IMG/VR virus record: IMGVR_UViG_3300013006_000149
Location: 1-21,205 of that record
Direction: 5' to 3' (one strand)
DNA length: 21,205 nt
Origin: a virus
The notes under the pieces were generated by a model, which worked only from the letters and a program-made list of their open reading frames with translations, had not been told where the DNA came from and did no database searches. Made by a program: the position numbers and the translations under genes. The stretch's first letter is position 1. Each line of letters starts with the position of its first letter. Shown here in pieces: positions 4,896 to 18,998 of the stretch.

Positions 4896-7736
4896 ATGAA
4901 TTATCCGAAATATTATGGTAATTATCTGGGTATAGTTGTACAAAATAATGACCCACAAAAAAGAGGTAGAGTTAAAGTTTTTGTACCCCATGTCTCACCT
5001 ACTGTTTATAAGAAATGGAATGAAGTATCAAAAGACAAGAAATTTAGATTCTTAGGGGCAAACGTTTGTAGTGATTTGACAGAAATTCTAGAAGATCTTA
5101 AGAAAATATTACCTTGGGCAGAATTAGCAACCCCACTTGTAGGCGAGAGCGCTAGCGGTAGATATAATGCTCATTTAAATGCCGCTACTATTAGCGATAG
5201 TAACGATGTAAGTACAGCGTTTTCAAGTATAACATCATATGAACCGTCAACGGATACAGATCAATATAATCAGAATCAAGACAATATCGGTGAAAAGCCG
5301 GGTAATATATTTGATATATCTTATTATAAGTTAAAAGATGCGTTTTCTGATCCTAACGAAACAGGTGTTAATAATGTTAATATTTTTTCATTTAACTATA
5401 CACCTGAATGCTATAGTAATTGTGCAAAAGGATCATTTCCTTTATTGCGTGTAGGTTCCCATGTTTGGGTATTTTTTAATAGCGGAGACCCTCTTAGCCC
5501 TGTAATATTTGGCGCCTCGTATGGATCTGAGGATTGGAAGAGTATACACGACATACCGGACACCAGCATTGCTTCTCTTTCTGCACAATCTGACGAGGGC
5601 ATCGATTACCCAGGTACGTACGAGAATATTTCACAACAGCAAAACGATACGTATGATATTAATACCGAGACATATCGTAACAAATATATTATAAATCAAA
5701 AAGGTGGCACCCTATCTTTTGTTAATACAGATAACAAAGAAATGCTGAAATTAACACATTACTCCGGTTCATTTAAAGAATTTAATAATTATACAACTAT
5801 TGAATTAGCTACAGGAAATGATCAAAAATTAGTCTTAAACGATCAATTTTTAACTGTAAGAGGTTATAGAAATGAGTATACAGACTTTGATTACGACCTT
5901 ACAACCCGCGGTGATGTATATAGAAAGATAGGTAATTTAAATCGCGCTGCACATCAATCATGGAAGGATATATACAAAGATGTTGCTGATACAAAGCAGC
6001 TATTTGAAATACAAAGATCCGCGGGAGCAACAGGAACGGGCGGTATATCGCTAGCTTCTAGTCTTCAAAGTAGAGCAGGTGCACCAGATGACTGCCCAGT
6101 TTGTAATAAGAATATTAATACCTACAATGTAGTTAATAATTCTTACAATGATAATACGTTTATAAATAAAACTAACCCTACAACCTCAAGCAGCAAAGGT
6201 AATCAAGTTTTTGGAAACTCGGTATCACCATCTGGAGTTATTAAGAGCGTCTTAAACCCGGGTAATCTAGGAAATACATTTCGTGCTACACCTACACAAT
6301 CATTAGATAATTCTGTCGATGGTTCCACTGGTTTTAACGCACCTGGATATATTCACGGTGTTAAATGCCCGTATTGTAAAGGTACAGGTAAAAATCCGGG
6401 ATCACGTGGTGGCAGTTGGAATAAAGATCCAAGAAAGCAAAATCTTTCTGGACTTATTAAGAGTAAGATGAGGCCTCTTGCTGCAGCAGAAAAAGAAATG
6501 GGTCTTGGTGGAAGCGAGATAGTTGAAATAACTAAACATAAAATCGAAACAATAGGTATGGTGATGAATGATTATGGGTCATTGCGTATTGACCCGGAGG
6601 GAAAGAGCTATATATCCGAAGTAAATGTTGGAAAATACGGCACATTTTATAATAGAGCTGCAACCCCTTTAATTGAACCTGTACATACTGATGATTTTCC
6701 TAGTGGTAATTATACTCTAACCGTCGGTAATAAATATAATATACTTGTTGGTGCCGGAGGTGTTAACTTAAAATCATATGGTCATGTTAACATAAGTGGG
6801 GCAATAACAACAGTTGCGGGGTCGCAAGTAAATATTGGGAGTGAGAATGAAATTAACATTGACGGCGGAAAGCGTATCAGCCTTATAGCTGATGTCATTA
6901 GTATAAGACAAAGAAAGAAAAAACAAGTCGTCGTCGACGGCTCTTTAGGCGTTACAACCAATCTTGTAATTGGCGGTGGCTTGCATGTAGAAGGTGAATT
7001 AACAGTTAACCATATTACAGGCCCTGCAGAAGTTCATTCTACAGAAGAAGCATATTGTTTTGCCTCACCTGCCACCGATGTAGGAAACGGACGCGGTGGT
7101 ATAATAGGGTTTGGTGTTCCTCTCTATGATCTACCAGTACCAGTACAGGAGGATGCTGGTAGTAATTTTGACCCCGAAAACATACCTGGTGGTGAACCTG
7201 CGTTTGTGGGAGTTACGGATAGTACTCGAGTTGTAGGTCAAATAGGATTAGGAGCACCTATTATAATTGGTTATATACCACCTGAAACAGTAATTACTGA
7301 AGTTGCAGGTGGGGTAGGTACTAAAAATATACTCCCCATACCTATATACGGTGGTATACCTGATGCGTTTGACCCCGCCGGTGCACCTGTTAGTGTTGCA
7401 CCTTCGCCTTGTGTAAATGGAACAGATGATCTCGGTCTAGCAAACGTTAGAGGCGCTTATGGTGCAGGCCCGCTAGCACCTGAAGCAATTAATAATACTA
7501 GTGCTAAATTCATGCCAATTGTTATCTACGGAACTGGTGCAGATCCCGATAGTATATTAGTTAGTAAGCATAGCCATTTGTTTAAAACAATAGCTTCAAC
7601 TTTAACAGAAACAAATAAACAAACAAGAGATGTAATGCGTAATGCGGGTTATACTGCAGCACCTGCTCAGCCTGTCTCCAATGCACCGAATGGCGCTAGC
7701 GGTAGTACAGACAACGGTAATGCAGAAGGTAGCTAA
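4896..7736 (+). CDS. gp5-like baseplate central spike/hub protein with OB-fold and zinc motifs
   Basis: A 946-residue protein. The N-terminus (GIVVQNNDPQKRGRVKVFVP, residues 13-32) is the typical start of a gp5/VgrG-type OB-fold domain, continued by PWAELATPL and by FPLLRVGSHVWVFFNSGDPLSPVIFG. A long middle part carries two zinc-type pairs, CPVC near residues 400-403 and CPYCKGTG near 491-498. Next comes a beta-repeat region (about 600-720) rich in short G/N/I/V repeats typical of the trimeric spike beta-helix. No lysozyme domain is visible, unlike T4 gp5. The C-terminal 230 residues are Gly/Pro/Ala-rich with a late SKHSHLFKTIA segment. The product would form the membrane-piercing tip under the tail tube. 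It is divergent from dpdA and convergent with a small leftward gene 4 nt away. Confidence 0.82.
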   Translation: MNYPKYYGNYLGIVVQNNDPQKRGRVKVFVPHVSPTVYKKWNEVSKDKKFRFLGANVCSDLTEILEDLKKILPWAELATPLVGESASGRYNAHLNAATISDSNDVSTAFSSITSYEPSTDTDQYNQNQDNIGEKPGNIFDISYYKLKDAFSDPNETGVNNVNIFSFNYTPECYSNCAKGSFPLLRVGSHVWVFFNSGDPLSPVIFGASYGSEDWKSIHDIPDTSIASLSAQSDEGIDYPGTYENISQQQNDTYDINTETYRNKYIINQKGGTLSFVNTDNKEMLKLTHYSGSFKEFNNYTTIELATGNDQKLVLNDQFLTVRGYRNEYTDFDYDLTTRGDVYRKIGNLNRAAHQSWKDIYKDVADTKQLFEIQRSAGATGTGGISLASSLQSRAGAPDDCPVCNKNINTYNVVNNSYNDNTFINKTNPTTSSSKGNQVFGNSVSPSGVIKSVLNPGNLGNTFRATPTQSLDNSVDGSTGFNAPGYIHGVKCPYCKGTGKNPGSRGGSWNKDPRKQNLSGLIKSKMRPLAAAEKEMGLGGSEIVEITKHKIETIGMVMNDYGSLRIDPEGKSYISEVNVGKYGTFYNRAATPLIEPVHTDDFPSGNYTLTVGNKYNILVGAGGVNLKSYGHVNISGAITTVAGSQVNIGSENEINIDGGKRISLIADVISIRQRKKKQVVVDGSLGVTTNLVIGGGLHVEGELTVNHITGPAEVHSTEEAYCFASPATDVGNGRGGIIGFGVPLYDLPVPVQEDAGSNFDPENIPGGEPAFVGVTDSTRVVGQIGLGAPIIIGYIPPETVITEVAGGVGTKNILPIPIYGGIPDAFDPAGAPVSVAPSPCVNGTDDLGLANVRGAYGAGPLAPEAINNTSAKFMPIVIYGTGADPDSILVSKHSHLFKTIASTLTETNKQTRDVMRNAGYTAAPAQPVSNAPNGASGSTDNGNAEGS

Positions 7737-17977: not shown

Positions 17978-17985
17978 TATAAATA
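17978..17985 (+). promoter_or_regulatory. Perfect T4 late promoter consensus TATAAATA
   Basis: A perfect TATAAATA ends exactly 5 nt before the ATG at 17991. With T4 late spacing the transcript would begin at the A of the start codon. It heads the LCIB-like/tail-collar/adhesin cassette. Confidence 0.75.
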
Positions 17986-17990
17986 CATGT

Positions 17991-18998
17991 ATGGCACAAG
18001 TACCCAATAGAAATGATCAACTTAGACGTCAAGTCAACGCAGCTCGAAGTATTTTCAATGTGAACCACGTATTGCGTAAAAGCAGTGGCAATGCAGTATT
18101 GGCAAATGTACCAGTAACACCTTCCCCGCAGCCCGCCTACACTGCCACAGTGAGAGCAACATATGCCAATGCAGTATTAGCGGAAGACTTTGGTGATAGA
18201 TGCGCCACCTTCATACAGTCTTTGTGTGGATATGCACCGAGTAATGTGGTGTCTGCTGCATGCATTTGTTCAGATGATAAAAATGCTCCCATCTTTCCTA
18301 ATAACACTTTTGGTCAATACCCTGAATCTTTGCAACAATTTTCTGGACCTTTCTTTGCCGGGGGCATTGGTGGTTATCCTTTCACAGGTATAGTAGGTAC
18401 CTTTGCATGGTCCTCCCACATCACTGACACTGGTGCCTTGTTCTACTACATTCAACCACACATTGGTATTACAGCTGCCGGGCAAGTGGGGTTCATGATC
18501 AGGCAAGGTCAGGCAACTGTATCAGCCACATGTGGTGCACTCAATGTGGCACAACAGTATGTGGCTACCGGTGGTGCAGAACCTACCTTCCCAGGTGCAT
18601 TTCCCTTTGGTGAATATGATTATCAGCAGTATGTACTAACAGAAAACCTGTACAGTGCAAATAGTGGTGCAGTAAGAACCAGTCTGGTGAACAACTACAA
18701 CACATACCAAGACAGTGCAGCTAATCCTAATGCCCTGGGCTATGGTGTGAGAATGAAGATTGCCACAGATGCCACCAGAGATGCTGCAGCTGCTGCATTC
18801 AAGGCCAACATATTACCTGCAGCTTATAACGCCTTGTTTGGTGCAAATAAATCTAGAGATGTGTTTGTGAGCGTGGGTACTTTCATTAATGTGGATGATG
18901 GTTTCAAAGCTTACATTGACTCTACTAGCTTTGAGAGATACAATCCGGTTACAGAAGACTACACCAATTACACTACAGCATTCAACAACGGCTTGTAA
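17991..18998 (+). CDS. LCIB-type beta-carbonic-anhydrase-like protein
   Basis: A 335-residue protein. After a short N-terminal helix and Pro-rich linker (residues 1-50), a core resembles the limiting-CO2-inducible B/C (LCIB) carbonic anhydrase family: CSDDKN (93-98), GGIGGYPFTGIVG (124-136), SSHITDTG (141-148), PHIGIT (156-161), RQGQ (171-174) and TCGAL (180-184). In that family two Cys and one His bind zinc; Cys93, His143 and Cys181 are the natural candidates. A phage copy might act on CO2/bicarbonate in the infected cell, or be a virion protein reusing the fold. A perfect late promoter precedes it and tail-tip genes follow on the same strand, which favours a late or virion role. The identification is by motif memory only. 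Confidence 0.68.
   Translation: MAQVPNRNDQLRRQVNAARSIFNVNHVLRKSSGNAVLANVPVTPSPQPAYTATVRATYANAVLAEDFGDRCATFIQSLCGYAPSNVVSAACICSDDKNAPIFPNNTFGQYPESLQQFSGPFFAGGIGGYPFTGIVGTFAWSSHITDTGALFYYIQPHIGITAAGQVGFMIRQGQATVSATCGALNVAQQYVATGGAEPTFPGAFPFGEYDYQQYVLTENLYSANSGAVRTSLVNNYNTYQDSAANPNALGYGVRMKIATDATRDAAAAAFKANILPAAYNALFGANKSRDVFVSVGTFINVDDGFKAYIDSTSFERYNPVTEDYTNYTTAFNNGL

Follow-up and report, generated by a model that had tools for sequence, protein, structure and literature searches.

An LCIB/C-type carbonic anhydrase domain as the head of a probable modular virion-surface protein in a T4-like phage

The window analysed in this study (the whole stretch of 21,205 nucleotides of viral DNA, positions 1 to 21,205 of IMG/VR record IMGVR_UViG_3300013006_000149) carries a 335-aa ORF with an ATG start (17991–18998, + strand), whose product is best explained, at a probability of roughly 0.6, as a modular fibre-type protein on the virion surface of a T4-like phage, made late and composed of a docking module and an LCIB-type head with an intact Cys-His-Cys site, Asp and Arg. 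This virion reading is preferred over a metabolic one because the N-terminal modules are exchangeable, some of them being common to fibre-like proteins, and because the LCIB genes are found in structural-gene neighbourhoods. A preliminary description of this DNA had proposed that the gene is metabolic or, alternatively, that the fold has been taken over by a virion protein; the virion part of that proposal is favoured by the modules and neighbourhoods, while takeover of the fold as a dead enzyme appears less likely because all putative catalytic residues are kept.

The LCIB family has been studied in the context of CO2 concentration by algae. The elements that had been likened to LCIB/C proteins were all found in place in the window protein (CSDD at residues 93–96, GGIGGYPFTG at 124–133, SHI at 142–144, PHIGI at 156–160 and TCGAL at 180–184), and homology extends beyond these motifs across the entire domain. 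The PF18599 profile (LCIB_C_CA) matched the protein with an E value of 1.6e-25 and 90.1 bits (cut-off 25), which rules out chance, while phmmer matched PDB 6kfs (E 1.5e-14) and PtLCIB4 (1.6e-10). The homology can thus be stated with high confidence; sequence matches to Chlamydomonas LCIB (4.3e-5) and LCIC (5.4e-5) were also obtained, and all 11 records of relatives that were tested exceed the PF18599 cut-off.

Fold analysis rests on a 49-sequence model of the domain alone (residues 46–335), with a mean pLDDT of 91.9 and a pTM of 0.92; an earlier 12-sequence model (mean pLDDT 63.3, poor at residues 85–145) was set aside. Comparison with PtLCIB4 (5b5y_B) gave a Z score of 27.5 and 2.2 Å over 239 residues, and six LCIB-family entries rank at the top (Z 27.5, 27.4 for 6kfs, 27.3, 25.9, 22.4 and 21.5), identity to the solved LCIB structures being 21–22%. 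Foldseek also matched the model to 6kfs (E 7.8e-14), and no match at E ≤ 0.001 was obtained in the BFVD viral library. Structure prediction thus recovered, with high confidence, the LCIB fold rather than an unrelated one, and the Cys-His-Cys residues are present in the sequence. Membership of the canonical beta-carbonic anhydrases was rejected because these are listed after all LCIB entries, from Z 12.6 downward, as opposed to 27.5 for LCIB. The features of the gene and its surroundings are compiled in Table 1.

Table 1. Features at and around the LCIB-type gene, in window coordinates
Feature	Position	Strand	Basis or remark
T4-type late promoter octamer TATAAATA	17978..17985	+	Exact match; starts 13 nt upstream of the ATG
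N-terminal module type A, residues 1–46, putative virion-docking piece	17991..18128	+	Beyond the PF18599 match
LCIB/C-type beta-carbonic anhydrase head, residues 47–335	18129..18995	+	PF18599, model, PtLCIB4 Z score
C93 (first putative zinc Cys), S94 (counterpart of PtLCIB4 S47) and D95 (candidate catalytic Asp)	18267..18275	+	Alignments
H143, putative zinc His (counterpart of PtLCIB4 H88 when counted along the alignment)	18417..18419	+	82/82 phage, 35/35 bacterial
R171, candidate dyad Arg	18501..18503	+	82/82 phage, 35/35 bacterial; role inferred
C181, second putative zinc Cys	18531..18533	+	82/82 phage, 35/35 bacterial
Tail collar fibre-like protein, 185 aa	19014..19571	+	phrog_1800 tail collar fiber, E 1.6e-23
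Fibre-like protein rich in Gly, 259 aa	19654..20433	+	phrog_9729 tail fiber, E 6e-16

In an alignment of 82 different full-length proteins from phages, C93, D95, D96, H143, H157, R171, C181, G182 and N300 are each present in 82/82, S94 in 78 (Ala in the others) and Q212 in 79, where it is to be considered that the search patterns partly enforce C93, D95 and the GTFIN segment, and another pattern the GG..GYP segment, while H143, R171 and C181 lie outside all printed search patterns. The set omits the truncated L019, L046, L051, L076, L078, L141, L183 and L188, as well as the partner copies L018 6868–7989, L029 6689–7909 and L030 8811–9668; the first two of these partner copies passed the pattern checks and the third retains CADD, SHI, KRRG and TCGA. 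Furthermore, C93, D95, H143, H157, R171, C181, Q212 and N300 are conserved in 35/35 homologues from Bacteroidota and related bacteria, these proteins being derived from 36 loci of which one (L090) yielded none by the motif rule. The wild-type PtLCIB4 chain reads CSDE and the S47R chain CRDE; S47 is therefore placed directly after the first Cys, a position at which the phage proteins carry the wild-type Ser, or Ala. The idea that the Arg of the Asp-Arg pair had been lost (CSDEVNR in 6kfs versus CSDD.NA in the phage proteins) was dropped because Asn occupies that position in most of the bacterial homologues (19/35, with Arg in 4/35) while R171 is invariant. The review PMC5876011 describes inactive LCIB members in which His162/161 and Arg194/193 are disordered, and R171 is a candidate for the latter residue based on its spacing and that review. 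Judging from these conserved residues, the putative Cys-His-Cys zinc site of the head is intact in sequence and probably catalytic. Half of the known LCIB proteins assayed in the original LCIB structure study were reportedly inactive, and an intact-looking site is therefore no proof of activity.

In the phage proteins, the LCIB domain lies at the C-terminus, as a head joined to N-terminal modules of no fewer than six kinds, the types of which were assigned by eye. Module A is that of the window protein (approximately residues 1–46), module B has about 80 residues and the motif SNDFxNLID, module D 45–50 residues and a PGSL-like motif, and module E 131 residues; modules F and G differ over the first ~36 residues and have the remainder in common, and further modules are represented by type H and by another type in L133–L136. 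At least seven changes of module label are required by the tree. Additionally, the heads of L081 and L082 (92% identity) and of L080 and L082 (93%) are closely related, yet the starts of these proteins differ, while L061 and L066 have 100% identical heads and 70% identical modules. A set of 1434 non-LCIB ORFs from the loci was searched with HMMs of the modules. The type A HMM produced nine matches in five loci (eight non-LCIB ORFs, including one RCC1 protein, and one truncated LCIB gene), the type D HMMs produced overlapping sets of 13 (D1), 26 (D2), 26 (D3, of which two are truncated LCIB genes) and 24 matches (D4), and those of F and G produced seven and five, respectively; the E and H HMMs had no match among these ORFs and that of B only one, a truncated LCIB gene. 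Modules A, D and F/G are thus common to non-LCIB ORFs, and B, E and H are not. Other heads carried on type A or D modules are RCC1 (L001 4126–6669), a BspA-type LRR (L044 4789–5991) and Fib_succ_major (L043 8906–9949), which point to a wider set of exchangeable phage heads. Two results were counted against the virion reading, namely that the type A module of the window and four tested modules had no match in named phages, and that PHROGs gave weak or no matches to the modules (phrog_22781, of unknown function, to the group B module at E 0.0013 and 0.0088, and phrog_20242, tail fiber, to the group G module at E 0.029). No PHROGs family matched the window LCIB protein.

These modules bear directly on the suggestion that the gene specifies a soluble auxiliary metabolic enzyme, i.e. 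a cytosolic carbonic anhydrase that feeds bicarbonate or CO2 to host or viral metabolism such as nucleotide synthesis, which we consider improbable. While the site is intact in sequence and the window holds ribonucleotide reductase, IMPDH/GMP-reductase-like, QueF, thymidylate-kinase-like and phosphoribosylglycinamide-formyltransferase-like genes, as would suit such an enzyme, each phage copy either has a module or adjoins a copy that does, whereas the bacterial homologues (about 210–265 aa, chromosomal) are devoid of an added module. Moreover, the modules are exchanged and common to fibre-like proteins, and the gene is accompanied by a late motif and structural neighbours and not by nucleotide genes. 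Since exchange of docking-type modules, which is usual in fibre proteins, is hard to fit with a soluble enzyme, display on the virion is favoured. Annotation alone would read viral carbon metabolism into this gene, while modules and context point to the particle, and caution is therefore warranted in calling an LCIB match an auxiliary metabolic gene.

Relative to its counterpart in L001, the head has a dN of 0.109 and a dS of 1.137, while the N-terminal module is saturated; the head is under purifying selection and, because of this difference, represents the conserved half of the protein. Selection is of consequence for a second role on the virion, that of an adhesin, in which the LCIB fold would act as a receptor- or glycan-binding fibre head, with a zinc site that has a structural role or forms a ligand pocket, its chemistry being irrelevant. 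The companion heads on the same modules have binding-type folds (RCC1 propeller, BspA LRR, Fib_succ_major) and collar/fibre genes flank the LCIB gene in the window, both in line with an adhesin. However, in receptor-binding proteins it is usually the tip that diverges and the docking end that is maintained, and here it is the head that is conserved (dN/dS about 0.1) and the module that is saturated; in addition, the putative catalytic residues are invariant in 82/82 proteins, including an Asp and an Arg that do not bind metal, and we therefore regard a purely adhesive role as unlikely. An invariant metal site, Asp and Arg within a conserved head are hard to fit with a binding tip and favour a head that is probably active. 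Fibres are usually trimers while beta-carbonic anhydrases are dimers or multiples thereof, which was counted against the fibre reading.

Collar and adhesin genes had been proposed downstream of the LCIB gene, and the PHROGs matches of the two products (Table 1), which belong to one and the same ORF cluster, agree with this; Pfam Collar matched the first of them at E 0.025 only, which is below the cut-off. Phage LCIB genes are often located beside portal, capsid or fibre genes. In one part of group B the LCIB gene follows the portal (phrog_213, E 2.6e-107) and sheath stabilizer (phrog_227) genes, and in another part it follows those for the major head protein (phrog_138, E 1.2e-82) and the head maturation protease (phrog_207), while in L081 it is positioned between the major head protein and head-tail adaptor genes. 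L037 has a major head protein of a different family (phrog_11589) five ORFs upstream, and the different capsid protein families near LCIB genes thus indicate that at least two phage lineages hold the domain. In groups B and F/G, LCIB genes adjoin genes for the portal or the major head protein, which would also be compatible with an internal or ejected virion protein, the domain residing inside the capsid and entering the cell with the DNA; we judge this very improbable, as the shared modules also carry RCC1, LRR and Fib_succ_major heads, which suggest an outside location, and the window gene has fibre-like neighbours.

Certain relatives possess an anchor-less LCIB copy (L018, L026–L029 and, in L030 and L031, the copy lying downstream), which in 7/7 contigs lies only a few bases from an anchored copy. 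In L018 (6868–8930), L029 (6689–8813) and L030 (7602–9668), the anchored and anchor-less copies are arranged in tandem and both carry the putative catalytic residues. Active sites of beta-carbonic anhydrases are situated at the dimer interface, and by analogy the two copies may dimerise with one subunit tethered, so that the tandem copies in some relatives may represent a tethered hetero-dimer.

The late promoter that had been described upstream of the LCIB gene is supported by an exact octamer match (Table 1) and by core placement beyond chance, though not by the number of octamers in the window, which is no higher than chance (4 versus 5.04 expected). ATAAATA cores are located 8–20 nt upstream of a same-strand ORF start at 6 of 19 sites in the window (0.195 expected), and none of 5000 random placements reached six. 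LCIB genes of T4-like groups are preceded by a late-promoter motif. Among the relatives, a late motif is present at most 20 nt (9–14 nt) before the LCIB start in groups B (12/12), A (4/6, window excluded) and H (2/3); elsewhere it is sparse (D 7/29, C 0/5, E 0/1, F/G 0/4), which was counted against the late-expression and virion reading. In the window, ATAAATA begins 12–16 nt before six starts (300, 9341, 13012, 13064, 17373 and 17991). T4 late promoter spacing, if valid here, would place the start of transcription at or near the start codon, and the late mRNAs would then be leaderless or nearly so.

Two further window genes were noted. A QueF-type 7-cyano-7-deazaguanine reductase (697–1617, − strand) is encoded beside the IMPDH/GMP-reductase-, thymidylate-kinase- and formyltransferase-like genes, and together these perhaps constitute a phage deazaguanine or nucleotide pathway. 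Additionally, a 946-aa protein (4896–7736, + strand) has a short N-terminal match to Phage_base_V (gp5-type OB, E 9e-9) and a long unmatched remainder.

A search for phage relatives, as had been advised, identified these in about 103 distinct IMG/VR contigs among the matches listed (80 of 90 confirmed matches in one scan), this being our own tally over several scans, with overlap between loci and with many contigs from samples that resemble one another. No relative was present in 50,697 named phage records searched with the window protein and L020, and no report of an LCIB-type phage or virion protein was found in the available portions of the literature. Of 395 genomes sampled within the Bacteroidota phylum group, 35 carry an LCIB-type protein, even though it was in algal CO2 concentration that the family became known. 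A quickly built tree comprised 59 phage and 35 bacterial rows, with L052 and L057 as long branches; in it, the phage rows occupy one side of a branch with a support of 99; the bacterial sampling consists of Bacteroidota and near kin, and the tree is therefore silent on algal and other bacterial LCIBs.

In the mechanism that we propose, the LCIB gene would be expressed late in infection and the short N-terminal module would dock its product to the particle, so that the protein would reside on the virion (on head, neck or tail). The head would bind zinc and interconvert CO2 and bicarbonate, or act on a closely related small substrate, beside the host envelope. A broader proposal, which we put forward tentatively and at somewhat less than even odds, is that a functional carbonic anhydrase is displayed on the particles of several aquatic phages that are unrelated to one another, each using its own docking module and some using a tethered dimer of anchored and anchor-less copies; while the phage adsorbs or enters, the enzyme would act at the host surface on CO2, bicarbonate or protons. 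Fibres with enzyme heads that target polysaccharides are known; a carbonic anhydrase head, if true, would add an acid-base and gas-handling enzyme to virions and would place the LCIB family in a non-photosynthetic setting.

The phage protein has whole-domain homology and the fold in common with the LCIB/LCIC family (PF18599; PtLCIB4, Chlamydomonas LCIB/LCIC and 6kfs), together with the Cys-His-Cys residues, Asp, Arg and a Ser equivalent to PtLCIB4 S47, but differs from it in being a phage protein with an exchangeable N-terminal module, encoded in structural clusters and 21–22% identical to the solved structures. The Bacteroidota LCIB-type proteins (L052–L057, L087–L116) possess the same domain and invariant residues, yet they lack an added module and are chromosomal, and the phage copies form a clade separate from those sampled. 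Putative metal-binding domains on a fibre are likewise a feature of the Alteromonas phage R22Y tail fibre, for which the accessible text of PMC11705849 describes putative iron-binding domains, a different proposed metal site and apparently no carbonic anhydrase. Finally, the arrangement resembles that of modular phage fibres and spikes with depolymerase or deacetylase heads, which, according to the excerpts available of PMC8262889 and PMC9569702, consist of an N-terminal docking module and an exchangeable C-terminal enzyme head; the heads of those fibres target polysaccharides and diverge with the host, whereas the phage LCIB head is strongly conserved.
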